A DNA stretch of 64,000 nt from Bacteroidota bacterium. GTDB taxonomy: Bacteria > Bacteroidota > Bacteroidia > Cytophagales > Cyclobacteriaceae. Every line of letters begins with the position of its first letter. Within the stretch, counting starts at the first letter, position 1. The notes beneath the pieces were generated by a model. That model searched no databases. It was not told where the DNA came from and was given only the letters and a program-made list of their open reading frames with translations. The stretch is from the NCBI GenBank assembly GCA_947470895.1, contig CANIVF010000012.1:1-64000 (forward strand). Direction: 5' to 3'. Below are positions 42,202-62,597 of the stretch, piece after piece. Made by a program: the position numbers and the translations under genes.

Positions 42202-42215
42202 CGCAAACGGTTGCG
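42202..42215. promoter_or_regulatory. Candidate LacI-type operator between lacI and susC
   Basis: CGCAAACGGTTGCG has arms CGCAA/TTGCG around a CG centre, the usual form of LacI-family operators. It is 35 bases before lacI and about 40 bases upstream of the susC -7 box. A second pair of arms, AAACGG/CCGTTT (42205-42224), overlaps it. Confidence 0.6.
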
Positions 42216-42263: not shown

Positions 42264-42384
42264 CCAAATGGTTATTTACGGGTATTATTGAAGCCAAATT
42301 CTGATTCGTTACTTCATGCAATTAACAAATTAGAATTTGAAAGTAATCGTAAAAACAACAATTAAAACCCTAAAACAATTACGT

Positions 42385-45365: not shown

Positions 45366-46994
45366 ATGAAAAGAACATTTAAAAAAATATGGATGCTTGG
45401 TTTGGGAACGGCATTTTTTACCTTCTCGTGTACCAATCTTGATGAGGAATTGTTTGATCAAGTTACAGCAGATAACTTTTTCAAAACCGATCAGGAATTG
45501 ATTGCTGGTTTGGGAGCTGCTTACTCTAGTTTTGGAGGATTGGGAAACCACTCTAACCTTTGGTCAACCAACGAATTGGTTTCTGATGAATTGATCATTA
45601 CAACCAAAGGCGGTGACTGGTTTGATGGTGGTGTTTTGCAACAATTGCACTTGCATACCTTTACGCCTGACAATGGTTTCTTTAACAATACCTGGGGATT
45701 CCTTTATGGTGGTGTTAACACCGCCAATCGTCTGATCTATCAATTTGAAGAGTTGAAGGCACAGGGAAATACCGCATCTGACGCCTATATAGCTGAGTTA
45801 CGTGCTATCAGGGCATTGTGGTATTATTGGATTATGGATGGTTTCGGAAGAGGCCCACTCGCGATTGATTTTACCGATGAGGAGGTTAAAGGTGCTTCAA
45901 CCCGTCAAGAGCTTTATAGCTTCATAGATTCTGAACTCACTGCTGTTATTGATGTACTTCCTACTGCAAAAGATGCAACAACTTATGGCAGGATGACTAA
46001 ATGGGCTGCATTAGCTGTACGTGCAAAGTTGTATTTGAACGCTGGAGTTTATACAGGTACGCCACAATGGGCTAAGGCAGCAGCAGATGCTAAATCTATT
46101 ATCGATGGTGGTAAGTTCAATTTGGAGGCAACCTACAAGGATAACTTTGCAGTAAATAATGCTGGATCGAGCGAGAATATCTTTGTTTATCCTTACGATA
46201 AGGTTTTCAACGGGGGATTCAATTGGCCAATGATGACTTTGCACTATGCAAGCCAGACTGTTTATAACTTCACTGATCAACCTTGGAATGGTTATTCAGT
46301 TGTAGAGGAGTTTTACAATTCATATTCTGATCCTGCTACCAATCCTGGCCCTCAGGGACCAGTTTGGAAAGGGTTAGCCGTAGATGCTAATGATGATAAG
46401 GTACCTGATACTCAAGGTACATTAGATTCACGCCTCTCTAACTTTATTGTTGGACCACAGTATAAGCCAAGTGGAGAAAAGGCAATTGATCCTGCCTTTG
46501 AAGGATCATCTTCAGCACAGCCTGATCCGGATGGAACAAACTTGAATTTTACACCTAAGTTGAATGAATTAGGACCAAACGCATGGCGCCAGGGCGGGGC
46601 TCGTATAGGAAAATATGCCTATGAGGTCGGTGGTACTGCCAACATGAGCAACGACTTTGTTGTATTCCGCTATGCTGATGTTCTACTGATCAGAGCAGAA
46701 GCACTATGGCAATTGAATAATGGTGATGCCGAGGCTTTAACTCTTGTTAATCAGATTCGTAGCAGAGCAAAAGTTGATCCTTTCGTATCTCTTACTGCTG
46801 ATAATCTATTAGCGGAGCGTGGTCGTGAGATGTTTGCAGAGATGACTCGCAGACAAGATTTGATCCGCTTTAATAAATTTGGACAAGCATGGGGCTTTAA
46901 GCCTGGCACGGATGCTTCCAAGTATTCTCTGTTCCCAATTCCTAAGCAACAACTTGATGCTAACAGCAAGTTGACTCAGAATCCTGGTTACTAG
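45366..46994 (+). CDS. SusD/RagB-family surface lipoprotein
   Basis: A 542-residue lipoprotein (signal ending at FTFSC). SusD features: the N-terminal helical region DQELIAGLGAAYSSFGGLG, TANRLIYQFEELKAQG, ELRAIRALWYYWIMDGFG, and the C-terminal FRYADVLLIRAEALWQLN, LVNQIRSRAKVDP and LAERGREMFAEMTRRQDLIRF. It caps SusC and binds the imported substrate on the cell surface. It is followed by a strong terminator. Confidence 0.95.
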   Translation: MKRTFKKIWMLGLGTAFFTFSCTNLDEELFDQVTADNFFKTDQELIAGLGAAYSSFGGLGNHSNLWSTNELVSDELIITTKGGDWFDGGVLQQLHLHTFTPDNGFFNNTWGFLYGGVNTANRLIYQFEELKAQGNTASDAYIAELRAIRALWYYWIMDGFGRGPLAIDFTDEEVKGASTRQELYSFIDSELTAVIDVLPTAKDATTYGRMTKWAALAVRAKLYLNAGVYTGTPQWAKAAADAKSIIDGGKFNLEATYKDNFAVNNAGSSENIFVYPYDKVFNGGFNWPMMTLHYASQTVYNFTDQPWNGYSVVEEFYNSYSDPATNPGPQGPVWKGLAVDANDDKVPDTQGTLDSRLSNFIVGPQYKPSGEKAIDPAFEGSSSAQPDPDGTNLNFTPKLNELGPNAWRQGGARIGKYAYEVGGTANMSNDFVVFRYADVLLIRAEALWQLNNGDAEALTLVNQIRSRAKVDPFVSLTADNLLAERGREMFAEMTRRQDLIRFNKFGQAWGFKPGTDASKYSLFPIPKQQLDANSKLTQNPGY

Positions 46995-47014: not shown

Positions 47015-47047
47015 AAAGGCAAGCATTTTATGCTTGCCTTTTTTTTT
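47015..47047 (+). terminator. Terminator of the susC-susD transcript
   Basis: A perfect 12-bp stem AAAGGCAAGCAT/ATGCTTGCCTTT with a 3-base loop, followed by T residues, 20 bases after the SusD stop codon. Confidence 0.88.
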
Positions 47048-47146: not shown

Positions 47147-50100
47147 GTGAAAAGGATATTTAACATTCGTATTTTTTCATTTTTGATTCTCATTTATTTG
47201 ACCTCATGCAATTCAGATCAGGATCAATCCAAAGCGGATCAGCTATTTCTCTTACATCCATCATCAAAAACGAGTATTACCTTTAAAAATGAGCTTAGTT
47301 ACACCGAGGAATTGAATCCCTATACATTCCGCAGCTTTTACAATGGAGGAGGTGTTGGTCTTGGAGATTTTAACAACGATGGATGGCAGGATATTTTTTT
47401 TGCCGGTAACCTGGTCTCTAATAAATTATACCTGAATAAAGGGAATTTTGAATTTGTTGACATCACAGCCTCGGCCGGTCTTCAATCAGAAGGTGTATGG
47501 AGTACTGGAGTGAGCGTGGTTGATATTAATTCTGATGGTTATTTGGACATCTATGTTTGCAAGTCAGGCCCACCGGGTGACGTACGGAGAAAGAATGAGT
47601 TATTTATCAATCAACGAGACCTAACTTTTAAAGAGCAAGCTTCCGACTACGGTCTTGCCTTTGAAGGTTTATCTATTCATGCAGCATTTTTTGATTACGA
47701 TAAGGATGGTGACTTAGATTGTTACCTGTTGAATAATTCTTTGCGTTCAGTGGGAGGGTTTGATTTGAGAAAAGATCAACGAAATATTCCTGACCCTGAA
47801 GGAGGCAATCGCCTTCTGCGAAATGAAAATGGAAAATATGGGGATGTAAGCCAACGTGCAGGCATCTATAGTAGTAAAATCGGCTTTGGGTTAGGTGTTA
47901 CCGTTGGCGATATTAATAACGATGGATGGTCTGATATGTTTGTATCCAATGACTTTTTTGAGAAGGACTACCTCTATATTAATAATCAAGACGGAACCTT
48001 CACAGAGTCGTTGGAGAGTATGATACGCGAAATCAGTTTGGGATCTATGGGGGCTGATCTGGCTGATATTAATAATGATGGCCTACCCGAATTGTATGTA
48101 ACAGAAATGCTTCCTGAGCATGATGATCGACTAAAGACGACATCGCAGTTTGAAACCTGGGATAAGTATAAGATATCCAACGAAGAAGGTTACTATCGGC
48201 AGTTTAGTCGAAATGCCTTGCAACTGAATAATGGAGATGGCACCTTTTCTGAAATATCAAGATTGACCAAAACAGAGGCAACAGATTGGAGTTGGGGTGC
48301 CTTGATTTTTGATATGGATAATGATGGAATGAAAGATATTTTTGTTGGCAATGGTATATATAAAGATTTGATCAATCAGGATTATGTCAATTTTATTGCA
48401 AACGCCAATGCTGTGCGCGAAATACTTCGAAAGGAAAAGAAAGTGATCAAGCGGTTGGTTGATTCCATACCATCAAACCAATTACCTAATTATGCATTCC
48501 AAAATAATGGTAATCTCCACTTTACGAATAAAGCCTCCGAATGGGGACTTGAATTACCAACGCACACCAATGGATCAGCCTATGGTGATTTAGATAATGA
48601 CGGGGATCTTGACCTGGTGTTGAACAATGTAAATATGTCATCCTTTGTCTATGAAAATAGGTCAAAGCAAATCCACCCTAACAACAAAACAATTTCATTT
48701 TCATTGCATGGAGATGATTTAAATTTATTTGCATTAGGTGCAAAAGTATCTCTTTATGATAGTGGCGTACTTTTTTATCAGGAAGTATCGCCTATGCGTG
48801 GGTTTATGTCTACGGTTGATACTCGTTTGCATTTTGGAGTTGGCTCCATCAATGCTATTGATTCCGTACGAATTGAATGGCCTGATGGACGATTAACCAT
48901 GCTAAGGAACACCACAACAAATCAGATTATAGATGTCTTTCAGAAAGAGGCAACGCTTACTAAGCCAATACTCAAACGTGTTGTGACATCACCGACTTTC
49001 AGTAAGGTAACTAACCTTCCGGGCCTTCAATTTGAACACAAGGAAAACGAGTTTGTTGATTTTGATCGGGATCGGTTGTTATTCAATATGATTTCCAATG
49101 AAGGACCTTGTATTTGCTCGGGTGACATTAACCAGGATGGATTAGATGACTTTTATATTGGTGGGGCAAAGGACCAGGCAGGAGCTTTTTTTATTCAAAC
49201 CAAAGAAGGTTTCAAAAGTATTAGATCAGCGTTATTGGAGAGCGATAAGGACTCGGAAGACACAGATTGCATTTTTTTTGATGCCAATGGGGATGGTAAA
49301 GATGATTTATATGTGACCAGTGGAGGCAATGAATTTTCTTCAAGTTCATCGGCATTGCTCGATCGTTTATATCTAAACAAAGGGAATAACAATTTTGTAA
49401 AATCCGCACAACCTTTGCCTGTTTCCACAGCTTTCGAAAGTACATCAACAGTTTCATCTGCTGATTTCGATCAGGATGGTGATCTTGATCTATTTGTTGG
49501 CGTTCGGGTTATCCCTTTTCTTTATGGAATGCCAGGTAATGGGTATATCCTGATTAATGATGGTGGAGGTGTTTTTTCAGATGCCACAAACACGATAGCC
49601 CCACAATTGCAAAAGGTGGGAATGATTACTAAAGGTAGTTGGGTGGATTTAAATCAGGATAATCTTCTTGATTTGGTTATTGTGGGGGAGTGGATGCCAG
49701 TGATGGTTTTTATTCAGGAGCAAGGCAAGCTTATTGACAGGACCAGGGCGTTCGGTCTGGAAAGAACAACCGGATGGTATCACGCATTGGAGGTTGCAGA
49801 TTTTAATCAGGATGGGAAAATGGATTTAGCGGTAGGCAACCATGGTCTCAATTCTAGATTTAGGGCAACGAGTGAAGAACCGGTTACCATGCACTTAAAT
49901 GATTTTGATCGCAATGGAACCATGGAACAGATTATTTCAAGATTTGATAATGGTATTTCATATCCCCTTGTTCTTAGAAATGATTTAGTAGCCCAAATTC
50001 CCTCATTGAAGAAAAAGTACCTTCATTTTTCTGATTATCGAACAAAAACCATGGCTGATATTTTTACTCCTGAGCAGATTAATGAATCAATCGTTCTGAA

Positions 50101-50470
50101 TGCGTATTCCTTTGAAACGGCAGTTTTCCTTAATCATGGAAATGCTTTTGAGAAAATCACATTGCCTATCCAGGCTCAATTTGCCCCCGTTTACTCTATT
50201 CTGGCAAGGGACTTTAATAAGGATGGAAATCCGGACTTGCTCATGGGTGGAAATTTATACCGGGCGAAGCCCGAAACAGGTATTTATGACGGCAGCTATG
50301 GACTATTGCTCACGGGTGATGGAAGAGGTAAATTTGCTGCTTTATCGGCCAATCAATCTGGGCTTTCAATTAAAGGTGAGGTAAGAGCGATGAAACAGAT
50401 AAACTGTAAAAAGAAGACGCTGGTATTGGTGGGAAAGAATGATAGTCAATTAGAAATATTAAGTTATTAA
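47147..50470 (+). CDS. FG-GAP/VCBS-repeat lipoprotein with ASPIC/UnbV domain (CRTAC-like, copy 1)
   Basis: A 1107-residue lipoprotein (signal ending at LTSC) from a GTG start with AGGAG just upstream. Many calcium-type loops of the FG-GAP/VCBS class occur: GDFNNDGWQDIFFAGN, DINSDGYLDIYVC, DYDKDGDLDCYLL, DINNDGWSDMFVS, DQDGDLDLFVG, DFNQDGKMDLAVG. An ASPIC/UnbV domain lies around residues 525-595 (GAKVSLYDSG, VRIEWPDGRLT). Propeller-like calcium-binding structure at the cell surface is expected; the family's role is unknown. First gene of a packed operon. Confidence 0.9.
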   Translation: MKRIFNIRIFSFLILIYLTSCNSDQDQSKADQLFLLHPSSKTSITFKNELSYTEELNPYTFRSFYNGGGVGLGDFNNDGWQDIFFAGNLVSNKLYLNKGNFEFVDITASAGLQSEGVWSTGVSVVDINSDGYLDIYVCKSGPPGDVRRKNELFINQRDLTFKEQASDYGLAFEGLSIHAAFFDYDKDGDLDCYLLNNSLRSVGGFDLRKDQRNIPDPEGGNRLLRNENGKYGDVSQRAGIYSSKIGFGLGVTVGDINNDGWSDMFVSNDFFEKDYLYINNQDGTFTESLESMIREISLGSMGADLADINNDGLPELYVTEMLPEHDDRLKTTSQFETWDKYKISNEEGYYRQFSRNALQLNNGDGTFSEISRLTKTEATDWSWGALIFDMDNDGMKDIFVGNGIYKDLINQDYVNFIANANAVREILRKEKKVIKRLVDSIPSNQLPNYAFQNNGNLHFTNKASEWGLELPTHTNGSAYGDLDNDGDLDLVLNNVNMSSFVYENRSKQIHPNNKTISFSLHGDDLNLFALGAKVSLYDSGVLFYQEVSPMRGFMSTVDTRLHFGVGSINAIDSVRIEWPDGRLTMLRNTTTNQIIDVFQKEATLTKPILKRVVTSPTFSKVTNLPGLQFEHKENEFVDFDRDRLLFNMISNEGPCICSGDINQDGLDDFYIGGAKDQAGAFFIQTKEGFKSIRSALLESDKDSEDTDCIFFDANGDGKDDLYVTSGGNEFSSSSSALLDRLYLNKGNNNFVKSAQPLPVSTAFESTSTVSSADFDQDGDLDLFVGVRVIPFLYGMPGNGYILINDGGGVFSDATNTIAPQLQKVGMITKGSWVDLNQDNLLDLVIVGEWMPVMVFIQEQGKLIDRTRAFGLERTTGWYHALEVADFNQDGKMDLAVGNHGLNSRFRATSEEPVTMHLNDFDRNGTMEQIISRFDNGISYPLVLRNDLVAQIPSLKKKYLHFSDYRTKTMADIFTPEQINESIVLNAYSFETAVFLNHGNAFEKITLPIQAQFAPVYSILARDFNKDGNPDLLMGGNLYRAKPETGIYDGSYGLLLTGDGRGKFAALSANQSGLSIKGEVRAMKQINCKKKTLVLVGKNDSQLEILSY

Positions 50471-50471
50471 A

Positions 50472-51047
50472 ATGAAAAAGGTATTAAATGGCGCCATACT
50501 GGCAATTATTTTTGGAACGTTAGTTATTTCATGTACCAAAAGTCGTAGTGAGAGTAATACAAAATACGATAGTTTATTTTTAGGGATTTCATTAGGCATG
50601 GAATCAAAGGCATTTTATGATCATTGCTGGGAGTATAACAAGCGGAAGGTCTTTACTCATGGGCCAACTAATCAGAATGTAGAATATAAATTGGTAGAAG
50701 GAATCAATAGCCCGGTGAGCATGAGATTTTATCCAACTTTTTATAAGGATAAAATATTTGAGATGCCCGTTACCTTTACCTATGATGCCTGGGCTCCCTG
50801 GAACAGACAGTTTCGATCCGATACCCTGCTTGTGAATATGTTAAAAGTTTTCAAGAAGTGGTATGGTCCTGACTTCAAAGAATTGGATCACTACACAATG
50901 GGGAAAGTGTATTATAAAATGGACGGAAAACGGAGAATCAATTTATTTATCAAAGATGATCAGTTTGTTCAGGCCGTTTTCACTGATTTAAAAGTGGAGA
51001 AGGAGCTTAAGAAATTATCAGAAGAACAATCAAAAAAAACTAATTAA
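50472..51047 (+). CDS. Small lipoprotein of unknown function in the CRTAC operon
   Basis: A 191-residue lipoprotein (signal ending at LVISC). The mature protein carries GISLGMESKAFYDHCWEYNK, RFYPTFYKDKIFEMPV, WAPWNRQFRSDTLLVNMLKV and a Lys-rich tail. No known domain is recognised. It begins one base after copy 1 of the CRTAC-like gene and ends 13 bases before copy 2, so it is translated from the same message and probably works with these proteins. Confidence 0.75.
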   Translation: MKKVLNGAILAIIFGTLVISCTKSRSESNTKYDSLFLGISLGMESKAFYDHCWEYNKRKVFTHGPTNQNVEYKLVEGINSPVSMRFYPTFYKDKIFEMPVTFTYDAWAPWNRQFRSDTLLVNMLKVFKKWYGPDFKELDHYTMGKVYYKMDGKRRINLFIKDDQFVQAVFTDLKVEKELKKLSEEQSKKTN

Positions 51048-51060
51048 ATAATTAGTGCTA

Positions 51061-54000
51061 ATGATACGCATCATCTGGATTGTGTTGTTTGGGATTTTTC
51101 TATTTTCCTGTAGCTCAAAAAATCAGAAAGGAACTTTGTTCACCGAATTGAGTAGTGACCACACAGGAATCGATTTTGCGAATAATCTCGCCTTTGATCA
51201 AAAGTTTAATATTTACACGTATCGCAATTTTTATAATGGAGGAGGTGTAGCGCTTGGTGACATCAATAATGATGATCTTATTGATATTTATTTCACGGCC
51301 AACCAAGGACCTAATAAACTCTATCTGAATAAAGGAAACTTTACTTTCGAAGATGTTACTGAAAAGGCTGGTGTTTCTGGAACTAAAGCATGGTCGACCG
51401 GTGTAAGTATGGCTGATGTAAATGGTGATGGCTGGTTGGATGTCTACGTTTGTAATTCGGGTGATGTAAAAGGTGACAACAAAGAGAATGAACTCTTCAT
51501 TAACAATGGCGACTTAACATTTTCGGAAAAAGCAAAGGAATATGGTGTTGCCGACAGAGGTTTTACTACACACGCTGCATTCTTAGATTATGATAAGGAT
51601 AATGATCTCGATCTTTATATACTCAATAACTCCTATCAGGCTATAGGTAGTTTTAACCTGCGTAAAAACGAGCGCCCTAAGCGAGACTCTTTGGGTGGTG
51701 ATAAACTTTTTCGCAATGACAATGGACATTTCACTGATGTAAGTGAAGAGGCTGGAATTTATGGAAGTGTGATTGGTTTTGGTTTGGGTGTAACGGTCGG
51801 GGATATTAATAAAGATGGATGGTCAGACATTTATATTTCAAATGATTTCTTTGAAAGGGATTATCTATACATCAATAACAGAGATGGTACATTTAAGGAA
51901 ACACTGACGGAACGAATGAAATCCATTAGCGGAGCCTCCATGGGTGCCGATCTGGCAGATATCAATAATGATACCTATCCGGATATATTTGTGACAGAAA
52001 TGTTACCGGCCGATAATGCAAGGATTAAGACCGTGACCACCTTCGAGAATTGGGATCGGTATCAGTATAACCTCGGTAATGGATATTATCATCAGTTCAC
52101 ACGGAACATGCTTCAGCTGAACAACGGCAATAATACATTTAGCGAGATTGGAAGGCTATGCAACGTAGAGGCTACAGATTGGAGTTGGGGTGCACTTATG
52201 TTTGATATGGACAATGATGGCCTTAAAGATATTTTTGTTGCCAATGGAATTTATCAGGACCTCACAAATCAGGATTATCTTCAATATGTCTCTAATGAGG
52301 AAGTGGTTCGGTCCGTGGTTACGGATAAGAATGTAGATTACAAAAAATTGGTTGAATTAATACCTTCTAACCCAGTTTCAAATTTTGCTTTTCATAACCA
52401 AGGCAATCTTAATTTTAAAAATTCAGCAGCCGAATGGGGTTTAGATAAACCAGGATTTTCAAATGGATCGGCTTATGGGGATATTGACAATGATGGTGAT
52501 CTTGATTTGATTATCAATAACGTGAATGGTCTCGCTTCTGTTATCCGCAACGAGACGAACATACAGATACCATCCAATCGCTACTTAAAGTTTGAATTAG
52601 AAGGCTTGGGACATAATTCATTCGCTTGGGGTACTTCAATAACCATCACCAGTGGCGTTAGGACTTTTTATATTGAGCAAATGCCTAACCGAGGCTTTGA
52701 ATCTTCTATGGATCCAAGGCCTAATGTAGGATTAGGCAAGATTGACACCGTTGACATTGTCAGTGTTCGTTGGCCTGACGGAAAAGAGACTCGCTTAACC
52801 AATGTACTCACCAATCAGGTTTTAAGATTGAAACAGGAAGATGGGGCTGCGCCAACTGAGATCGAGACCGTTAAAGTTGTCCAGACTTTTGAAGCATCTG
52901 ATGCCTTGAATGTAAATTATACACATGTTGAAAGCGAGTTTGTTGATTTCGACCGAGATAAATTGATTTTTCACATGTTGAGTACAGAGGGTCCAAGAAT
53001 TTCTAAAGGTGATGTGAACGGAGATGGCAAAGAAGATATTTATATTGGTGGAGCAAAGGATGTTGCGGGTAAATTGTTCATTCAAGGCAGCAACGGCTCT
53101 TTTCAAGAGCGTGCTCAGAAAGCTTTTGTTGATGATAAAGCGTCAGAAGATATGCAGAGTGTTTTCTTTGATTCAGATGGTGATGGTGATCAAGACTTAT
53201 ATGTGTGTAGCGGCAGCAATGAATTTTCAACCAGTTCAATCGCACTTGCTGATCGCTTATACGTAAATGATGGTAAAGGGAACTTTACGAGATCACAACA
53301 GATTTTACCAACATTTAACTTCGAGAACACTTCTGTAGTTAAGCCCTTTGATTATGATAAGGATGGAGATCCTGATTTGTTTGTTGGTGTGCGCAGCCAT
53401 CCTTTTTTATATGGTATGCCGATGAACGGCTATTTACTATCCAATGATGGAAAGGGAATCTTTACAAATGTAACAGATACGGTGGCACCGGCATTGCTAA
53501 GTATTGGTATGATAACGGATGCAGTATGGGTTGATATACATGGTGATGGTGATGCTGATTTGATTATAGTAGGAGACTATATGCCTTTGAAAATACTTAT
53601 TCAGGAGTCAGGAAGATTTGTTGATCAAACTGAATCATTGAATCTTGGAAAAAGTAATGGTTGGTGGAGTGCTATCGAGGTTGCTGATCTTGATAAGGAT
53701 GGTGATATGGATTTTGTTTTAGGAAACCATGGATTGAATTCAAGATTTAAAGCTTCCGTTGAGAAACCCGTGAGTATGTATGTCAATGATTTTGATAAGA
53801 ATGGTGATGTTGAGCAGATCATTTGCACTTATTATGGTGACAAAAGCTATCCTCTTGTCCTTCGTCATGATCTGACAGCTCAAATACCATCTCTTAAGAA
53901 AAAATTTTTGAAGTACGACAACTTCAAGGATCAAACCATTACGGATATTTTCACTAAAGAGGAATTTGACAAATCGTTAAAGTTGGACGTGTATGAATTG

Positions 54001-54363
54001 GCGTCTTGCTTACTGATCAATAATGGTAAAGAAGGATTTGCCCTGAAGCGTCTTCCGGTTGAGGCTCAGCTCTCCGTAGTGTATGCTATTGCTGTTGATG
54101 ATTTTGATCAAGACGGCCATCTTGATATCGTCCTGGGCGGAAACTTATACAGCGTCAAACCGGAAATGGGACGTTATGATGCAAGTTATGGAACTTTCTT
54201 AAAAGGTGATGGTAAAGGTAATTTTGCTTCGGTACTGACCAGAGATTCTGGATTATTCCTGGATGGCGAAATCCGTGATATGACTACTGTGGAGGTTGCC
54301 GGTAAGAAGTATTTATTGGCCACCCGCAACAATGACTCAATGTTGACATTTAAGGTCAAATAA
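51061..54363 (+). CDS. FG-GAP/VCBS-repeat lipoprotein with ASPIC/UnbV domain (CRTAC-like, copy 2)
   Basis: A 1100-residue lipoprotein from the ATG at 51061 (a GTG six bases earlier is in frame); signal ends at LFSC. It aligns with copy 1 throughout: GDINNDDLIDIYFT, DVNGDGWLDVYVC, DYDKDNDLDLYIL, DINKDGWSDIYIS, DWSWGALMFDMDNDGLKDIFVANGIY, ASPIC/UnbV around residues 520-590 (WGTSITITSG, VRWPDGKETRLT) and DLDKDGDMDFVLGNHGLNS. The ligand is unknown. Confidence 0.9.
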   Translation: MIRIIWIVLFGIFLFSCSSKNQKGTLFTELSSDHTGIDFANNLAFDQKFNIYTYRNFYNGGGVALGDINNDDLIDIYFTANQGPNKLYLNKGNFTFEDVTEKAGVSGTKAWSTGVSMADVNGDGWLDVYVCNSGDVKGDNKENELFINNGDLTFSEKAKEYGVADRGFTTHAAFLDYDKDNDLDLYILNNSYQAIGSFNLRKNERPKRDSLGGDKLFRNDNGHFTDVSEEAGIYGSVIGFGLGVTVGDINKDGWSDIYISNDFFERDYLYINNRDGTFKETLTERMKSISGASMGADLADINNDTYPDIFVTEMLPADNARIKTVTTFENWDRYQYNLGNGYYHQFTRNMLQLNNGNNTFSEIGRLCNVEATDWSWGALMFDMDNDGLKDIFVANGIYQDLTNQDYLQYVSNEEVVRSVVTDKNVDYKKLVELIPSNPVSNFAFHNQGNLNFKNSAAEWGLDKPGFSNGSAYGDIDNDGDLDLIINNVNGLASVIRNETNIQIPSNRYLKFELEGLGHNSFAWGTSITITSGVRTFYIEQMPNRGFESSMDPRPNVGLGKIDTVDIVSVRWPDGKETRLTNVLTNQVLRLKQEDGAAPTEIETVKVVQTFEASDALNVNYTHVESEFVDFDRDKLIFHMLSTEGPRISKGDVNGDGKEDIYIGGAKDVAGKLFIQGSNGSFQERAQKAFVDDKASEDMQSVFFDSDGDGDQDLYVCSGSNEFSTSSIALADRLYVNDGKGNFTRSQQILPTFNFENTSVVKPFDYDKDGDPDLFVGVRSHPFLYGMPMNGYLLSNDGKGIFTNVTDTVAPALLSIGMITDAVWVDIHGDGDADLIIVGDYMPLKILIQESGRFVDQTESLNLGKSNGWWSAIEVADLDKDGDMDFVLGNHGLNSRFKASVEKPVSMYVNDFDKNGDVEQIICTYYGDKSYPLVLRHDLTAQIPSLKKKFLKYDNFKDQTITDIFTKEEFDKSLKLDVYELASCLLINNGKEGFALKRLPVEAQLSVVYAIAVDDFDQDGHLDIVLGGNLYSVKPEMGRYDASYGTFLKGDGKGNFASVLTRDSGLFLDGEIRDMTTVEVAGKKYLLATRNNDSMLTFKVK

Positions 54364-57300
54364 GTGGGCGTCACGAATACGCATCTGTATAGGATTTATG
54401 TTGGGCTGATCATAGTCACGTTAATCTCATGCAAACGCGAGAACACAACTATAAAATTATTTCAGAAGCTATCATCTCATCAGACCGGAATAGAATTTTC
54501 AAATAACATCGAAGAAACGGATCAGTTCAATATTATAGAATACTTGTATTTCTATAATGGCGCAGGTGTTGCTGCTGGTGATATCAATAACGATGGATTA
54601 CCGGATTTGTACTTTTCTTCCAATCAAGGTCCTAATAAACTTTTTCTCAACAAGGGTGATTTTAATTTTGAAGATATTTCTTCGCAGGCAGGAGTTGCGG
54701 GAATCGGAAACTGGAAGACCGGAGTCACTATGGCTGACGTAAATGGAGATGGATACCTGGATATTTTTAGTTGTGGAGTGGGCGACTACAAGAGTTTTAC
54801 GGGAAAGAATCAATTGCTGATTAACAATGGTGATCTTTCATTCACAGATAGGACTAAAGAATACGGTTTGGCTTTTCAGGGATTCTCAACACAATCCTCT
54901 TTCTTCGATTATGATAATGATGGTGATCTGGATATGTATCTGGTTAATCACTCTGTGCATTCGGTGCGATCTTATGGTGATATTCTGATGCGAAATCAAA
55001 GCGATTACAAAGCAGGCGACAAATTGTACAGGAACGAATTGATACCATCGGGTAAGCCTTCATTTTCTGAAGTGACTTCGCAAGCAGGAATTTTTAGCAG
55101 CCAAGTGGGGTATGGATTGGGTGCCGGGGTATCCGATTTGAATAATGATGGCTATTTGGATATTTATGTCTCTAATGATTTTCATGAAAATGATTATCTC
55201 TATATCAATCAAGGTGATGGAACTTTTAGACAGGAGTTGGAAAAAAGTATTCCTCACACCAGTCGATTTTCTATGGGCAATGATATCGCGGATATCAACA
55301 ATGATGGTTGGCAAGATATCATCACGCTGGATATGTTACCCAACGAGGAGACTGTATTAAAGACTTCCGGTGGAGAGGATCCCTATGAGATATTTCAATT
55401 CAAACTCCAGTTTGGATACCACTATCAAGTTTCTCGGAATGCACTACAATTAAATAGAGGTATCACACCGAATCAAACACTTGCCTTTAGCGACATTGCT
55501 GCATTAGCTGGTGTGGAAGCTACGGACTGGAGTTGGGGGCCGCTGCTTGCCGATTTTGATAATGATGGATTGCGTGATCTTTTCATCGCCAATGGTATTA
55601 TGAGAAGGCCTAATGATCTGGATTACATCAATTATATATCCAGTGATTCCGCACAACGATTTCTCTCCGATCAGGCCATGATTGATAAGATGCCATCAGG
55701 AAAAGTGCCCAACTTCTTTTTCAGGAACAATGGTGATTTAACATTTGATCATGTTTCTGAACGTTGGGCAACCATAAACCCATCATTATCTAATGGCTCG
55801 GCTTATGCCGATCTTGATAACGATGGTGATTTGGATTTGGTTATAAATAACATCAACGAGCCTGCTACTCTCTATATCAATTCAACTGATCTAACATCCA
55901 ACTATCTAAAAGTCAAGCTTCAAGGAGTTTTTCCTAATCCATTTGGGGTGGGAGCGAAGGTCAACGTTTATTCAGGAAAATTAACGATGACTCAGGAATT
56001 AATTCCCTCGCGTGGTTGGCTATCCAGCAGCGATTATGCACTTAATTTTGGCTTAGGAAAAACTAGCTTAATCGATTCATTAATTGTAATCTGGCCAGGT
56101 GGCAAGTTTCAAAAGATTAAATCCATAAGATCCAATCAAACAGTTCAGCTAAAGCAACTGGATTCTAAAAGTAACTGGTACTCCATTCAAGATTTGAGTA
56201 AACCTTTGTTGCATAATACAGATTCCATTGATTTCATTCATCGCGAGGATGAATTTACTGGTTTTGAAATCGAGCGATTAATTCCTCATACCCTTTCTAC
56301 GCAAGGCCCGAAGTTGGCTGTTGCCGATGTTAACGGTGATCAACTTGACGACTTCTTTATTGGTGGTGGTAAAGGTCAGGCTGGTGTACTGTTTATTCAG
56401 GATAGTATGGGAAATTTCAAAAAATCGGAAGAAAATGTATTTGAATCTGATTCTTTAGCGGAGGATACCCATGCAGTATTTTTTGATGCCAATGGTGATG
56501 GAAAACAAGATTTAATGGTAGTAAATGGCGGGCAGGAAAAAGAGGGGAGATTAGATGAATTACTACCCCGACTTTATTTAAATGATGCTAAAGGGAATTT
56601 TAGAAAAGTACTTAATGCAATACCTGAACTTTATCTCAATGCTTCTTGTGTAAAACCGGAAGACTTTGACAATGATGGTGACCTTGACTTATTTATTGGT
56701 GGTCGAGTTATCGCTGGTAACTATGGACTTGCCCCACATAGTTTTTTGTTAAAGAACAATGGCAAAGGAATTTTTTCTGATGCGACTTCATTGTTGCCGA
56801 TTGCGTCTTTAGGTATGATTTCCGATGCCTCCTGGCTCGATTTGAATAATGATGGAAAGAGGGATTTGATTTTGGTGGGTGAGTGGATGCCAATAACTTT
56901 TATGATCCAAGATCAGAATGGAAGTTTTGTTGATCGCACCAAGGAATATGGATTTGATAAATCTTCTGGTTGGTGGAATACAATCTGCCAGGCAGATCTT
57001 GATGATGATGGCGATTTCGATTTTGTTGTTGGCAACACTGGTCTTAACTCACGTTTGCGAGTTAGTGAAAAAGAGCCATTAGAATTATGGGTAGGGGATA
57101 TTGACGCTAACGGAAGTAAAGACCCTATTATGACGTACTACAACGATCATCAACGATATCCATTTGTTTCAAGAGATCAACTAGTAAAGCAGGTGCCTCC
57201 TCTTAAGCGGAAGTTCTTAAAGTTTGAAGATTATAAAAATGTGAAGTTGGAGAATATCATTCCACCTGAAAAGATGAGTGAATTCGTGCATAGAAAGGCG

Positions 57301-57675
57301 GAGATATTCTCCTCCGTATGGATTGAAAATAAAGAAAATCAAAGTTATCGGATTCATCAGCTTCCCAAGGCGATCCAAATGTTCCCGGTATTTTCTTTTC
57401 TCGTTCATGATGTAAATGGTGATGGCCATGCTGATATTTTGGCAGTCGGTAATTGGCAAGGAGTGCAGCCGGATTTGGGTAGACAGGATGCAGGTTATGG
57501 ATTAATTTTATTGGGCGATGGGAAAAATGGGTTCACCCCACAACGCATCGGTGATTCAGGATTTTGGGTGCCCGGTGAGGGACGCGATATTAAAATAGTG
57601 ACAGGCAGCAATGGAAAAAAGCGAATACTAGTAAGCAGGAATAATGATTCTGTTTTAATCTTTAAGTTTCCCTGA
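54364..57675 (+). CDS. FG-GAP/VCBS-repeat lipoprotein with ASPIC/UnbV domain (CRTAC-like, copy 3)
   Basis: A 1103-residue lipoprotein (signal ending at LISC) starting at a GTG immediately after the stop codon of copy 2. Same layout as its neighbours: GDINNDGLPDLYFS, DVNGDGYLDIFSC, DNDGDLDMYLVNHSVHS, GAGVSDLNNDGYLDIYVS, DWSWGPLLADFDNDGLRDLF, ASPIC/UnbV around 525-590 (GVGAKVNVYSG, VIWPGGKFQKI), and DLDDDGDFDFVVGNTGLNS. Its sequence is less similar to the other two than they are to each other, by eye. Confidence 0.9.
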   Translation: MGVTNTHLYRIYVGLIIVTLISCKRENTTIKLFQKLSSHQTGIEFSNNIEETDQFNIIEYLYFYNGAGVAAGDINNDGLPDLYFSSNQGPNKLFLNKGDFNFEDISSQAGVAGIGNWKTGVTMADVNGDGYLDIFSCGVGDYKSFTGKNQLLINNGDLSFTDRTKEYGLAFQGFSTQSSFFDYDNDGDLDMYLVNHSVHSVRSYGDILMRNQSDYKAGDKLYRNELIPSGKPSFSEVTSQAGIFSSQVGYGLGAGVSDLNNDGYLDIYVSNDFHENDYLYINQGDGTFRQELEKSIPHTSRFSMGNDIADINNDGWQDIITLDMLPNEETVLKTSGGEDPYEIFQFKLQFGYHYQVSRNALQLNRGITPNQTLAFSDIAALAGVEATDWSWGPLLADFDNDGLRDLFIANGIMRRPNDLDYINYISSDSAQRFLSDQAMIDKMPSGKVPNFFFRNNGDLTFDHVSERWATINPSLSNGSAYADLDNDGDLDLVINNINEPATLYINSTDLTSNYLKVKLQGVFPNPFGVGAKVNVYSGKLTMTQELIPSRGWLSSSDYALNFGLGKTSLIDSLIVIWPGGKFQKIKSIRSNQTVQLKQLDSKSNWYSIQDLSKPLLHNTDSIDFIHREDEFTGFEIERLIPHTLSTQGPKLAVADVNGDQLDDFFIGGGKGQAGVLFIQDSMGNFKKSEENVFESDSLAEDTHAVFFDANGDGKQDLMVVNGGQEKEGRLDELLPRLYLNDAKGNFRKVLNAIPELYLNASCVKPEDFDNDGDLDLFIGGRVIAGNYGLAPHSFLLKNNGKGIFSDATSLLPIASLGMISDASWLDLNNDGKRDLILVGEWMPITFMIQDQNGSFVDRTKEYGFDKSSGWWNTICQADLDDDGDFDFVVGNTGLNSRLRVSEKEPLELWVGDIDANGSKDPIMTYYNDHQRYPFVSRDQLVKQVPPLKRKFLKFEDYKNVKLENIIPPEKMSEFVHRKAEIFSSVWIENKENQSYRIHQLPKAIQMFPVFSFLVHDVNGDGHADILAVGNWQGVQPDLGRQDAGYGLILLGDGKNGFTPQRIGDSGFWVPGEGRDIKIVTGSNGKKRILVSRNNDSVLIFKFP

Positions 57676-57792
57676 TATTTGGCTGATCTGAAAACCAGCT
57701 ACTTTGGGGCATTGGTTTTTTTAAGAATTTGGGACAATGTTCGGAAATTATCTAGAGATGATTGAAATCATACTTTTTATTTAGAGAAAGCT

Positions 57793-57800
57793 TATTTTTG
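57793..57800 (+). promoter_or_regulatory. Predicted -7 box of the haloperoxidase-type gene
   Basis: TATTTTTG fits TAnnTTTG exactly, 19 bases before the ATG at 57819. It would allow separate expression from the CRTAC genes, 144 bases upstream. Confidence 0.45.
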
Positions 57801-57818
57801 CGGGTTGAAAATCGAATT

Positions 57819-59159
57819 ATGAAAAATATTTTAAAACTGGCCATCGTGACGTTGATCATTTCATCGTGTGCAAGCGATAATGGTGAATGGAGGTCAAAGG
57901 CTCAGAATCCTGATTATCTGCATCGCTCGATTAAGCAGATTACAGATGTAATCGTTTATGATATTTTTTCCCCTCCGGTAGCATCTCGCATTTATGCCTA
58001 TAGTAGCATTGCAGCTTACGAAGTAGCCATCCATCAAGATTCAATATATCGTAGCTTGGCTGGTCAGTTGACGGGCTTCGAAGCTGTGCCACAACCGGAA
58101 GAAGGTAAGGAGTATTGCTATTCGTTAGCTTCCGTTCAGGCAGCTCTTAAAGTAGGACGCACGTTGGTTTTTTCCGAGGATAAGATGGATGTTTTCTATA
58201 GTGAAATCATGCAGGAGTTCCATGATGCTGGTGTGCCAGATGAAGTGTTTGAACGTTCCATAACCTACGGAACACAGGTTGCTGATCATGTTATAGCCTG
58301 GTCAACAAAAGATAATTATAAACAGTCAAGATCATTTCCTAAATATTCCATTCAGGAAGATCCTTCAACCTGGAAACCTACACCGCCTGCCTACATGGAT
58401 GCTGTAGAACCACATTGGAATAAGATCAGACCGTTTGCTATTGACTCCGCTCAGCAATTTAAGCCAGTACCTCCTACACCATTTTCTATTGATAAAAAAA
58501 GTCAGTTTTATAAAGAAGCAGTGGAAGTGCTTGAAATGGGAAATAATCTCACTACGGAGCAACGTGAAATTGCTTTCTTCTGGGATTGCAATCCTTTTAT
58601 GATGAATGTGAAGGGCCATGTGATGTTTGCCACCAAAAAAATTTCCCCCGGAGGGCATTGGATGAACATCACCAACGTGGCTTGCAAAAAAGCCAAGGCC
58701 GACTTTACCCAAAGTAGTGAGGCATATGCGCGCGTTTCTATTGCCCTCGTGGATGCTTTTATGTCTTGCTGGGATGAAAAATATAGAAGCAAGTTGATCC
58801 GCCCTGAAACCTACATCAATCAGTATATAAACGAAGATTGGGTGCCCGTACTTCAAACACCTCCTTTCCCGGAATACACCAGTGGTCATAGTGTGATCTC
58901 CGCTGCGTCTGCGGTTACCCTCACAGAATTGTTTGGTGACAATTTCGCATTTACAGATTCAACAGAAGTAGAGTTCGGTCTTACAGCAAGAAGCTTTAAA
59001 TCATTTATTCAGGCTTCCGAAGAGGCTGCCATCAGTCGTATGTATGGAGGAATTCATTATCGACCAGCAGTTGAAGTGGGAATGACAGAAGGCAGAGCGT
59101 TAGGAACGTACATTCTTCATAAGATAAGAACACGTAAGGAAGACGCAGCGCTGAATTAA
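57819..59159 (+). CDS. Vanadium-dependent haloperoxidase/PAP2-superfamily lipoprotein
   Basis: A 446-residue lipoprotein from the ATG at 57819 (signal ending at ISSC). The vanadate/phosphate pocket is complete: KYRSKLIRP (K-x6-RP, about residue 321), YTSGHS (about 351) and SRMYGGIHYRP (about 405-413). Family members oxidise halides with peroxide when vanadate is bound, or act as acid phosphatases; sequence alone does not decide. It ends the CRTAC module and converges on a DUF4249 gene 14 bases away. Confidence 0.88.
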   Translation: MKNILKLAIVTLIISSCASDNGEWRSKAQNPDYLHRSIKQITDVIVYDIFSPPVASRIYAYSSIAAYEVAIHQDSIYRSLAGQLTGFEAVPQPEEGKEYCYSLASVQAALKVGRTLVFSEDKMDVFYSEIMQEFHDAGVPDEVFERSITYGTQVADHVIAWSTKDNYKQSRSFPKYSIQEDPSTWKPTPPAYMDAVEPHWNKIRPFAIDSAQQFKPVPPTPFSIDKKSQFYKEAVEVLEMGNNLTTEQREIAFFWDCNPFMMNVKGHVMFATKKISPGGHWMNITNVACKKAKADFTQSSEAYARVSIALVDAFMSCWDEKYRSKLIRPETYINQYINEDWVPVLQTPPFPEYTSGHSVISAASAVTLTELFGDNFAFTDSTEVEFGLTARSFKSFIQASEEAAISRMYGGIHYRPAVEVGMTEGRALGTYILHKIRTRKEDAALN

Positions 59160-59173
59160 TTTTGGACTGCCGG

Positions 59174-60247
59174 TTAGAACCAATCAGGTCTTTTATAACT
59201 ACTATTCCTGAGTGATAAACAATCCAGGCAGTAGCTCGGGTAGTCTGAATAGTATTTATCTCCATAAAAGGTGCAATCCACGTCTGGGAAGAAAACACGA
59301 TAGGGAAAATCACTGGGAAGCAATGAGAATCTTTGAGAGGTTTCATGGGTGGCTTGAAAACAGCCCAACACCTTTTCGGTTGGATTATTTACATTGAATA
59401 CATTTCCTTTGATTTGCGCTGGAGGTGTATCGAAGATGGAACCGGTCTGGTTAGCCAAAATATTTACCTTATTCCAATAGGCATGCGCTTCTTCAGTGAT
59501 GGACGATTGATAGGTATTGAAGTAGTGCTTTTCCAGAAAAGTTCGATCAACAGCCCTTGAGCAGATCAATTCTTTTTGGATTTCTGTTGAATTGAATTGA
59601 CGTCCATCAAATAACGCTATTCGATTTGGCTCTGCTTTTTGAGTTACAAAACAAGGAGGAGGAATATTGCCAAGCACGTCAGGGAAATCCGTTGGAGATA
59701 GAAGATAAACTTCTTCGACTGTCCAATGGAGAAAACGTTGTTTCCATTCCGGTGGCAAAGAAGTTGCCGCATAGATTTTTATTACACGTCTGGGTACATT
59801 GGCTCCTTCGGAATCAGTATAAATCTCCTCAACAAAATCATGCGAAACGGTTAGTGTACCAGTATATTCCGGCATTTTTTCAGGAACCGATTCATAGACT
59901 TCCCCGGTAGGGAGAATTACTTTTATGTGGTACGTTGAGCCTGGTTTTCCTGTAAAGCCGGATAACGCATAAACACCTTCTGCACGCTCATCATAATTTG
60001 TGCTGTTTCCCATTTGATCATTCAGTTGAATGATTGCACCACTGATTGGATAAGGCAGCCTGCCTTCAGCCGTTATTCCTAACTGGATTTCACTTCGCTC
60101 AACCATAGAACTCACCTGACCGGTAATCACGACCTGTCCGCCTTGGTTTTTTGCACTAAAATCAAAAGGGCTTATACAACTGTATAATAGAATGATTGGT
60201 AGCTGACGAAAAATAAAATTTAGAATAAAGGATTTTGCGTATTTCAT
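59174..60247 (-). CDS. DUF4249 lipoprotein (copy 3)
   Basis: A 357-residue lipoprotein from the ATG at 60247, signal ending at LYSC. DUF4249 features: SPFDFSAKNQGGQVVITGQVS, the GAIIQLNDQMGN block, GSTYHIKVILPTGEVYES, VEEVYLLSPTDFPD with NIPPPCFV, the SITEEAHAYWNKVNILANQTG segment, and the ending CLDCLSLRNSSYKRPDW. These proteins usually accompany a TonB-dependent receptor and are thought to be surface partners. It is the most divergent of the three copies. Confidence 0.88.
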   Translation of the reverse strand: MKYAKSFILNFIFRQLPIILLYSCISPFDFSAKNQGGQVVITGQVSSMVERSEIQLGITAEGRLPYPISGAIIQLNDQMGNSTNYDERAEGVYALSGFTGKPGSTYHIKVILPTGEVYESVPEKMPEYTGTLTVSHDFVEEIYTDSEGANVPRRVIKIYAATSLPPEWKQRFLHWTVEEVYLLSPTDFPDVLGNIPPPCFVTQKAEPNRIALFDGRQFNSTEIQKELICSRAVDRTFLEKHYFNTYQSSITEEAHAYWNKVNILANQTGSIFDTPPAQIKGNVFNVNNPTEKVLGCFQATHETSQRFSLLPSDFPYRVFFPDVDCTFYGDKYYSDYPSYCLDCLSLRNSSYKRPDWF

Positions 60248-60331
60248 TTCATTAGAGCGAAGGTACTCGTACAAGCGGATTTTACTTGGTTTAGGATAAT
60301 GGGTTATATCAAGACTTATCTTTATTATCGG

Positions 60332-61405
60332 TTAAAACCAATCTGGCCGGGTATAACTACTATTACGCACGGTGGTACAATCGATGCATCGCGCAGGATA
60401 TTCTAATGAATTAAAGCTTCCCGTAAAAGCACAGGTCGTTACGGTTAGCGGAAAAGGAAGATCGGATGGGAAAACAAAGAATCGATTATACGTTTGATTG
60501 GTAGCCTGAAAATATCCCAGCGTTTTTTCTTTTGGATTTTCTTTACTTATTAGGTTACCCGTGATCGTAGCCGGAGGGGTGTCAAAGATAGTACCCACCT
60601 GGTTTGCTACAATGTTTACTTTACGCCAGTAATCATAGGCTTCTTTAGTAATGGATGATTGATAAATAGTAAAGTAATGTCGTTCCAGGAAAGACCAATC
60701 AATTAATCTTGATCCAACCAGGAGGTTATTGATAGAAGTACTTGTTACTTCCGATCCATTGAACAATACAATTCTTTGCGGGTCGGCATTTTGAATAACA
60801 AAGCAAGGCGGTGGGATGTTCCCAAAAGGATCGGGGAAGTCGGTAGGTGAAAGAAGGAAAACTTCTTCAACACCCCACTTCAAATAGATCGGTTCATTCG
60901 AAGGTAATAATTCACTATTCGAGTAGAGGTCAAAATAATCTTGCATCACTACGGCACCTTCTTTGTCTGTGAATTCTTTCTTAACAATAGTATAGGATAC
61001 AGATTCCTGAAGTGTAGGTTCCGGTAGTTTTTCTGGAAGTGACTTATAAGATCCACCATCTATAAGATCAATTTGAATATAATAAGTCCGCCCTGCTATT
61101 CCGACTTCATTTTTTAAATAGTACATGCCTAAATTTTGAACGTCCTCCTCGTATAAATAAACATTTCCAACGTCATCAAACAATTGAATAGTTGCGCCAC
61201 TGACAGGAAATGGAAGCTGCGCTATTTTGGCTGTTGTACCCAACTGAACAAAGTTCTGATCGCTAAGGTTACTGATTTGCCCGGATACTACCAGTGTACC
61301 TCCTTTAATTTCAACTGGAAAATCTATGGGTGTAAGGCAACTTGAAAGCACTAAGAATACCAGAAACTTAGAAGGGAACCTTAACGGAAAATAAATTTGT
61401 TTCAT
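60332..61405 (-). CDS. DUF4249 lipoprotein (copy 2)
   Basis: A 357-residue lipoprotein (signal ending at LSSC) very close to copy 1, also at the DNA level. Shared blocks: TPIDFPVEIKGGTLVVSGQ, GATIQLFDDVGNVYLYEED, WGVEEVFLLSPTDFPDPFG, ADPQRIVLFNGSEV, WSFLERHYFTIYQSSI and the end CIDCTTVRNSSYTRPDW. It lies 71 bases downstream of copy 1, on the same strand. Confidence 0.88.
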   Translation of the reverse strand: MKQIYFPLRFPSKFLVFLVLSSCLTPIDFPVEIKGGTLVVSGQISNLSDQNFVQLGTTAKIAQLPFPVSGATIQLFDDVGNVYLYEEDVQNLGMYYLKNEVGIAGRTYYIQIDLIDGGSYKSLPEKLPEPTLQESVSYTIVKKEFTDKEGAVVMQDYFDLYSNSELLPSNEPIYLKWGVEEVFLLSPTDFPDPFGNIPPPCFVIQNADPQRIVLFNGSEVTSTSINNLLVGSRLIDWSFLERHYFTIYQSSITKEAYDYWRKVNIVANQVGTIFDTPPATITGNLISKENPKEKTLGYFQATNQTYNRFFVFPSDLPFPLTVTTCAFTGSFNSLEYPARCIDCTTVRNSSYTRPDWF

Positions 61406-61476
61406 CCTTAGACTAAATCTGAAAAGTGGTCTCGTCTGTACATGTATAATTCATAAATTAATTTTTGTATGGCTTT

Positions 61477-62565
61477 CTAAAACCAATCAGGTCTGGTATA
61501 GCTACTATTGCGCACGGTGGTACATTCGATGCATCTCGCTGGGTAGTCCGATGGATCAGATATTCCAAATTCTGCAAGGCTTCCATCATAGGTACAGGAT
61601 CGTACCGTTAGCGGAAAGGGAAGGTCTGCAGGTAAAACAAAGAATCGACTATAGGTTTGATTGATCGCTTGAAAATATCCTAGGGCTTTTTCCTCTGGAT
61701 TTTCTTCACGCACAATATTGCCTTTGATAGTAGCCGGAGGGGTGTCAAAGACAGTACCCACCTGGTTTGCTACAATGTTTACGTTGCGCCAGTAGTCATA
61801 GGCTTGTTTAGTAATTGAAGATTGATAAATAGTAAAATAATGTCGTTCCAGGAAAGACCAATCAATTAATCTTGAGGCAACCAGAATATTTTTTATCGAT
61901 GTGGCTGATACTTCTGATCCGTTAAATAATACAATTCTTTGAGGGTCGGCATTCTGTACCACATAACAGGGAGGTGGAATAATACCAAAGGGATCAGGAA
62001 AGTCAGTAGGAGAGAGAAGAAAAGCTTCTTCAACACCCCACTTCAAGTACGTGGGGTTATTCGTTGACAAGAAGGTACTATTCGAGAATAATTCTATATA
62101 ATCCTCAACCACAACCGCTCCTTCTTCATCTGTTGATTTCTTCTTAACGATATTGTATGAGATGGATTCCTGAATAGCAGGGTCAGGTAATTTTTCCTTA
62201 AGTGATTGGTAATGAATTCCGTCAGGAAGTTCTATGGTGATATAATAAGTCCGACCAGCAACTCCGGCTAAATTCTTTAAATAGTACCTACCTATATTTT
62301 GAAAATCCTCTTCGTAAAAAAAAACATTACCAACATCATCATATAATTGAATAGTAGCGCCACTGATCGGTAAAGGAAGTTGCTCAATAGTAGCTGTTCT
62401 ACCTATTTGAATGATGTTCTGGTCGCTGATCGTGCTGATTTGTCCGGTTACTACCAGTGTACCTCCTTTAATTTCAACTGGAAAATCAATGGGTGTGAGG
62501 CAGCTTGAAAGCAACAGGAAAAACAAAAACTTAATAGGATTCTTTTTGAAGCAATCACTCCACAT
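61477..62565 (-). CDS. DUF4249 lipoprotein (copy 1)
   Basis: A 362-residue lipoprotein from the ATG at 62565; this start gives a signal of the same length as copy 2 (Cys22 in LLSSC). An ATG at 62595 in the same frame is possible and would nearly abut the receptor stop. Blocks match copy 2 (TPIDFPVEIKGGTLVVTGQ, GATIQLYDDVGN, FLLSPTDFPDPFG, WSFLERHYFTIYQSSI) with a short insertion near the C-terminus (LAEFGISDPSDYPA). It directly follows the TonB-dependent receptor. Confidence 0.88.
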   Translation of the reverse strand: MWSDCFKKNPIKFLFFLLLSSCLTPIDFPVEIKGGTLVVTGQISTISDQNIIQIGRTATIEQLPLPISGATIQLYDDVGNVFFYEEDFQNIGRYYLKNLAGVAGRTYYITIELPDGIHYQSLKEKLPDPAIQESISYNIVKKKSTDEEGAVVVEDYIELFSNSTFLSTNNPTYLKWGVEEAFLLSPTDFPDPFGIIPPPCYVVQNADPQRIVLFNGSEVSATSIKNILVASRLIDWSFLERHYFTIYQSSITKQAYDYWRNVNIVANQVGTVFDTPPATIKGNIVREENPEEKALGYFQAINQTYSRFFVLPADLPFPLTVRSCTYDGSLAEFGISDPSDYPARCIECTTVRNSSYTRPDWF

Positions 62566-62597
62566 CGTATTACGTAATAAACGTTGCGAATCCATTT

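Follow-up and report, generated by a model that had tools for sequence, protein, structure and literature searches.

A conserved SusCD-linked operon type with an ordered CRTAC/ASPIC trio and a new lipoprotein family in Bacteroidota

INTRODUCTION

The dextran utilization locus of Flavobacterium johnsoniae (FjDexUL; PMC10316084) combines a SusC/SusD pair (SusCD) with a family 31 glycoside hydrolase (GH31) and a GH65 kojibiose hydrolase, FjGH65A (PDB 7fe4). Here, we describe a locus from a Cyclobacteriaceae genome (Bacteroidota bacterium, assembly GCA_947470895.1), found on a stretch of 64,000 nucleotides that we call the window (contig CANIVF010000012.1, positions 1 to 64,000, forward strand). 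The locus encodes SusCD, three long lipoproteins of the CRTAC/ASPIC type (CRT1, CRT2, and CRT3; collectively CRT), a small lipoprotein (SLP), and a vanadium-dependent haloperoxidase homolog (VHPO). The present locus shares SusCD and GH31 with FjDexUL, and its relatives in other genomes carry a GH65 of the FjGH65A sequence group. As listed, FjDexUL has a SusR regulator, a SusE/F homolog, GH66, and GH97, whereas the present locus has instead a LacI-family regulator, three CRT genes, SLP, and VHPO. Furthermore, a search of the genome that contains the window turned up no GH65 of the FjGH65A type; its single GH65-family gene belongs to a different type.

The CRT proteins share an FG-GAP propeller and an ASPIC domain with CRTAC1 (murine structure 9etn) and with UnbV/ASPIC proteins, but they are about twice as long, have further FG-GAP repeats after the ASPIC domain, carry a lipobox, and stand as an ordered trio beside SusCD. 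VHPO is homologous over its full length to PDB 4cit, which we take to be a ZgVIPO1-type vanadium iodoperoxidase of Zobellia, and its aligned active-site residues are identical; unlike that enzyme, it is a lipobox protein encoded in a SusCD-CRT locus. To our knowledge, neither CRTAC/ASPIC proteins nor the VHPOs of bacteria have clear roles, although both are common. In literature searches, whose coverage left out most subscription journals, no title or abstract opening among the best matches listed described this locus, and none paired a vanadium-dependent haloperoxidase with SusD in Bacteroidetes or with a VCBS repeat-containing protein.

RESULTS

These "unknown" lipoproteins belong to a conserved type of operon that comprises SusCD, an ordered CRTAC trio, and a new lipoprotein, with GH65 and VHPO in some lineages. 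It is larger than the five genes, CRT1 to VHPO, of the preliminary description, which was made from the window sequence alone: susC and susD belong to it, and LacI and GH31 genes lie divergent from susC. The forward-strand order is susC (42337–45351; TonB-dependent transporter, TIGR04056, 745 bits), which has a listed TTG start and a likelier ATG 48 bases further on, susD (45366–46994; lipoprotein, PF07980/PF14322), CRT1 (47147–50470; 1107 residues), SLP (50472–51047; 191 residues), CRT2 (51055–54363; 1102 residues), CRT3 (54364–57675; 1103 residues), and VHPO (57819–59159). The last five open reading frames (ORFs) were all recovered where they had been placed, and the claim of short gaps also holds, with 1, 7 (13 if CRT2 starts at ATG 51061), and 0 bases from CRT1 through SLP and CRT2 to CRT3. 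VHPO lies 143 bases downstream of CRT3 and thus does not abut it. Its ORF covers 57762–59159, and the likeliest start is ATG 57819, after which the lipobox comes. On visual inspection, each of the five proteins shows a lipobox, as had been reported.

Conservation of this neighborhood in relatives, which had been proposed as a check, was found: SusC, SusD, CRT1 to CRT3, SLP, and VHPO occur in this order across families. Because the same arrangement recurs in other families, it is not due to chance. SLP is present in 47 of the 146 genomes searched, including its own (one match), and in 18 of 70 genera. The neighborhoods of the 51 remaining SLP genes were all taken, giving 52 rows because a single broken gene (L086) contributes its two halves separately. 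Neighbors were counted up to 9 kb upstream and up to 9.5 kb downstream. On the upstream side, SusC was present in 43 rows, SusD in 45, and CRT in 48; on the downstream side, CRT was present in 45 and VHPO in 25. Under these limits, the second SLP of L046 is scored without SusC, and VHPO is scored as missing in a few relatives that have it farther away. The set is therefore one conserved system beside SusCD, and SLP occurs mainly there. Fifteen rows lack some of SusC, SusD, or CRT on either side, nine of them at contig ends; the genuine exceptions are L047 (SLP by itself), L048 and L070 (SusCD only), and L050 and L051, in which CRT is missing downstream.

A collection of species genomes was scanned with SLP-derived patterns only, yielding 176 relatives, with 79 loci kept. 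SLP relatives occur in Cyclobacteriaceae, Chryseolinea, Algoriphagus, Aquiflexum, Imperialibacter, Roseivirga, Saprospiraceae, metagenome-assembled genomes (MAGs) of Bacteroidales, and Mucilaginibacter. A few SLP-bearing MAGs labeled Thalassobius, Thalassovita, and Neomarinimicrobiota are perhaps misbinned. All 79 named loci have SusC, SusD, or CRT within 1 kb of SLP on the same strand; CRT is within 1 kb in 75, and SusD is upstream in 64. The stretches around these loci often end soon downstream of SLP. Some come from the same genomes as other loci (e.g., L127/L037); the locus listings keep both, and trees and gap counts used distinct sequences. A class-wide draw gave SLP matches in 13 of 395 genomes, one of them on a short contig (L219). 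The nine strong matches other than our own were all beside CRT, six with SusCD and five with VHPO.

In a SusC tree, SLP loci (82 rows) fall on one side of one branch, opposite a small group with CRT and no SLP (7 rows); the program warned of long branches. As had been noted, SLP belongs to no known family, falling below cut-off throughout Pfam and NCBIfam. Its 63 homologs gave only scattered weak matches to Pfam, with at most two members per family and a best E value of 0.00095. The AlphaFold model of SLP has a mean predicted local distance difference test score (pLDDT) of 89.0, and nothing convincing was found to make it a known fold. Foldseek returned no PDB entry at E ≤ 0.001 (best 0.015), and the best VIA match is 6xtd_B (Z score of 7.4, root mean square deviation of 3.6, 121 aligned).

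SLP is not a strictly exclusive family, as three remote matches (L228, L229, and L230; E values of 6e-8 to 2e-7) lie elsewhere, without the module. These SLP-like lipoproteins have a common "FGM" motif and no CRT neighbors, and by eye one of them adjoins a phage-tail-tape-like ORF. SLP could accordingly be one branch of a broader superfamily that has no name. Separately, L046 and L163 carry a tandem repeat of SLP and CRT2 with identical SLP copies, a recent duplication of the pair.

The three CRT paralogs have the same domain order, as described before, with 10–12 FG-GAP_3 matches and one UnbV_ASPIC match each; the ASPIC domain lies within residues 524–595, with FG-GAP repeats on both sides. 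The AlphaFold model of CRT2 (mean pLDDT of 89.1; predicted template modeling score of 0.89) has murine CRTAC1 (9etn) as its best PDB match, with an E value of 1.9e-25 and a template modeling score of 0.70 by target length, and 9etn is also matched by sequence (E 5.2e-17). One full trio (CRT-SLP-CRT-CRT) is present in 39 loci, and we built two FastTree trees of their CRT copies, one from the first 34 loci and one from all 39. In the 34-locus tree, every position is one clade, with supports of 99, 98, and 94. With all 39 loci, dn1 and dn2 are single clades (100 and 96), and "up," the position of CRT1, is not one side of a branch. There, "up" alone needs 2 changes and the whole labeling 3, the minimum possible; none of 200 shuffles was as low as 3 with either set of loci. 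No copy in the 39 loci has crossed between positions. Since the copies group by position rather than by genome, they are old paralogs with fixed places, and recent tandem duplication of the CRT genes is ruled out.

In the window's genome, 10 ASPIC genes are distributed over 6 contigs, and the seven outside the trio form one separate tree group. Two other CRT clusters in this genome stand with SusC-type genes, one (L033) with a LacI-like protein, judged by eye from its first residues, and one (L035) with Gfo/Idh/MocA and LamG proteins. Loci of the Algoriphagus type (L136, L141, L146, and L154) read SusC-SusD-SLP-CRT, with two more CRT genes on the divergent strand, so that the module is split yet together.

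VHPO matches the PAP2 superfamily in Pfam and is nearer in sequence to haloperoxidases. Its closest solved chain is 4cit, titled "vanadium-dependent haloperoxidase" (full-length, E 1.8e-161), and the four solved chains that match it by sequence are vanadium haloperoxidases or NapH3. Residues W337, K340, R347, F369, S374, G375, H376, and R426 do not vary among the 67 sequences compared, our own included, and H432 is kept in 66, with one gap. We presume that these residues have the usual vanadate-binding and catalytic roles (K, R, S-G-H, R, and H). The pocket that had been called intact is indeed so, having the same active-site residues as 4cit in the alignment.

VHPO is found in 91 of the 146 genomes, our own included (E ≤ 1e-10). 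For linkage, we used 66 distinct genes with surroundings, which are the top of the hit list and not a random sample, and dropped four that showed no CRT and had only a short upstream stretch. A CRT gene lies at most 4 kb upstream on the same strand in 47 of the 62 judged loci; about 0.4% would be expected by chance (10 ASPIC genes in 4.9 Mb). This linkage changes 11 times on the tree, and VHPO is thus tied to CRT loci both with and without SLP. It is optional, being present in 25 of the 52 SLP rows and anywhere within the stretch covered in 6 of the 79 named loci; the Imperialibacter locus (L138) includes it.

Among the neighbors tested, those of clear function are largely glycosidases. The GH31 gene (38605–41025, reverse strand; Pfam GH31 domains) encodes an α-glucosidase-type enzyme whose closest solved chains are α-glucosidases. 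The closest solved chain to SusD is the starch SusD 3ck7, at just E 6.4e-29. In 20 loci, an ORF of ~675 residues lies between CRT and VHPO (L092 has additional genes there), and all four that were tested are GH65. One relative's GH65 is closest to 7fe3 (E 1.3e-233), in the same sequence group as 7fe4. A GH65 survey of 58 genomes found 20 genes, 15 of which adjoin VHPO on the same strand with gaps of 7–192 bases, 14 in the order GH65-VHPO and one reversed. GH13 genes follow CRT2 in L183 and L199; that of L183 is nearest to oligo-1,6-glucosidases and has sucrose-isomerase relatives too. L171 has a weak rhamnosidase/MGH1/trehalase-like match. With adjacent susC and susD and a glycoside hydrolase in the locus (GH31 here, GH65 in relatives), the locus resembles a polysaccharide utilization locus (PUL) in gene content. 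A Pfam scan of the seven genes from susC to VHPO showed no SusE/F-type or other known surface glycan-binding protein, and CRT and SLP might have a glycan-binding role. On the same contig, ~10–19 kb past the module (L036:4994-14609), genes for a canonical GH65 phosphorylase-type enzyme, a GH13 α-amylase-type enzyme, a glycerol-3-phosphate-oxidase-like protein, and a DUF3179 protein form a possible α-glucoside operon.

The terminator reported after susD corresponds to a terminator-like hairpin at 47015–47041 (forward strand; 12-pair stem and T run) in the gap before CRT1. Although it tops the terminator list, 12 terminators in total against 13.1 in shuffles are no excess, and the hairpin is outstanding through its conservation: of 81 distinct gaps between susD and CRT, from loci that have SLP and loci that lack it, 65 contain a terminator-like hairpin, compared to 12 of 810 shuffles preserving base composition only. 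The hairpin probably determines how much SusCD is made relative to the proteins encoded after it. The separate promoter that had been predicted for the CRT half was not supported. Promoter-like sites number 46 in the 43–61 kb region against 51.8 in shuffles, and the Bacteroidota-type motif TTTG/TTG-N18-23-TAnnTTTG was not found in the window's susD-CRT1 gap. Furthermore, there is little room for a promoter, because the susD-CRT gap is only 55–70 bases in several relatives.

Divergent from susC, a LacI-family regulator (41121–42167, reverse strand; Pfam LacI and Peripla_BP) lies next to the GH31 gene. The palindrome CGCAAACGGTTGCG at 42202–42215, a candidate LacI operator, has its sole exact match in the 4.9 Mb genome there; allowing one mismatch, it is no commoner than its reversed control. 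It is exact in L127/L037, close in L137/L044 and L170, and loose in L135/L043 and L138. LacI homologs (48–87%) are beside the module in L127, L135, L137, L170, L176, L194, and L204, and GH31 homologs, clipped by the stretch end, are beside LacI-SusC in L127, L135, and L137.

Downstream, genes for three DUF4249 proteins in tandem and for a TonB-dependent receptor (59174–63827, reverse strand) converge on the module. Among the 53 loci whose sequence extends far enough, 9 have a convergent DUF4249 gene at most 2 kb from the module end, and L129/L039 has a receptor-DUF4249 pair inside the module, between susD and CRT1. This may be coincidence, as the family is common (15 matches in the window's own genome).

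DISCUSSION

The explanation that we favor, and hold to be somewhat probable, is a PUL-like operon under LacI control that serves SusCD uptake of an α-glucoside; CRT and SLP would be its dedicated accessory lipoproteins, and VHPO would be a peroxidase attached to it. SusC and SusD would import an α-glucose-containing oligosaccharide or glycoside; judging by the neighboring enzymes, the ligand is likely an α-glucoside or a related small oligosaccharide and may differ between branches. GH31, plus the kojibiose-hydrolase-like GH65 of many relatives, would cleave it. The three CRT β-propeller lipoproteins would hold fixed, non-interchangeable roles and, together with SLP, would be the accessory lipoproteins of this SusCD lineage, replacing the SusE/F-type glycan-binding proteins of classical loci. 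On a presumed common transcript, the hairpin after susD would reduce CRT-VHPO expression relative to SusCD. VHPO would be a halide peroxidase that draws on H2O2 at the cell envelope and would most likely serve to oxidize or halogenate a released (e.g., phenolic) aglycone, or to remove H2O2, during feeding on algal or plant exudates.

Several observations weigh against this account, beginning with localization. Two or more acids at +2 to +7 after the lipid cysteine form the SusD-type surface export signal in other Bacteroidota. We counted D/E residues there in distinct N-termini, excluding rows without a lipobox by a simple pattern (found among full-length rows in 81 of 123 for SusD, 40 of 62 for CRT1, 120 of 147 for CRT2, 84 of 108 for CRT3, 103 of 146 for SLP, and 58 of 70 for VHPO). 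At least two were present in 0.90 of 40 for SusD, compared to 0.37 of 35 for CRT1, 0.28 of 111 for CRT2, 0.36 of 74 for CRT3, 0.20 of 83 for SLP, and 0.26 of 53 for VHPO. A looser measure, any acid in +2 to +6, gave 1.00 for SusD and 0.55–0.81 for the others. The case for a joint surface complex is weaker because CRT, SLP, and VHPO mostly lack SusD's acidic signal, a hint, though not a decisive one, that these accessory proteins may face the periplasm. Of the "one surface system" in the preliminary description, the one conserved system stands, and surface exposure of all five proteins is doubtful.

The remaining points concern gene content and regulation. SLP is found with SusCD and no CRT in L048 and L070 and with neither in L047; in L224 and L227, it stands with CRT, but the sequence in view shows no SusCD. 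Five of the 20 GH65 genes (G006, G016, G090, G099, and G109) are not next to VHPO, and GH31, GH65, or GH13 homologs occur in just 10 of the 79 named loci within the stretch covered. Other loci have a GH32 (L160), a 3-keto-disaccharide hydrolase (L202), or an esterase and a phosphoenolpyruvate carboxykinase (L143), and a single ligand class is unproved because neighbors differ in this way. No operator-like site was found upstream in L204, L176, L194, L222, and L132, and the loose operator pattern was scored without a computed background.

The main alternatives turn on VHPO. It could be a passenger, serving defence, antibiosis, or H2O2 scavenging, that shares the locus for expression only while SusCD-CRT-SLP imports a sugar. 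VHPO genes without CRT upstream, 15 of the 62 judged, fit this idea and also tell against our own; in further support of a passenger, a Zobellia iodoperoxidase, vIPO3, rises on fresh Ascophyllum (PMC9296495). However, the tight adjacency of GH65 and VHPO, with those 7–192-base gaps in 15 genomes, suggests a shared pathway, and we regard a mere passenger as unlikely. Giving VHPO the opposite, central place, the operon would import a halogenated, phenolic, or otherwise oxidizable compound that VHPO modifies at the envelope, with CRT binding the product. The intact pocket and the repeated joining of VHPO to CRT loci of different subtypes speak for it. Yet 27 of the 52 SLP rows have no VHPO within 9.5 kb (several are contig ends, and some have it farther off), only those six named loci show one, and tested neighbors of clear function are mostly glycosidases, which leaves it a distinctly unlikely reading.

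The preliminary description had also allowed that the last protein dephosphorylates a ligand. A PAP2-fold phosphatase acting on a sugar phosphate ahead of import would agree with the superfamily match, and the pocket comparison with 4cit does not decide the matter, since vanadate and phosphate pockets are alike. The sequence-matched solved chains are all vanadium haloperoxidases or NapH3, however, and the pocket residues are those of 4cit; dephosphorylation is thus disfavored, and we consider it very improbable.

A bolder reading, tentative and on balance doubtful, is that CRT1-SLP-CRT2-CRT3 and SusCD form a stable stoichiometric outer-membrane assembly. This would be a new kind of accessory complex for SusCD, with SLP as its marker and a distribution across Bacteroidota, and some branches would couple sugar import to VHPO halide chemistry on the glycoside.

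SLP is a lipoprotein family without a Pfam or NCBIfam name that marks one SusCD lineage. The fixed, multi-family operon in which it lies links CRTAC/ASPIC proteins and VHPO to a SusCD importer and α-glucosidases, and so provides a handle on their function.

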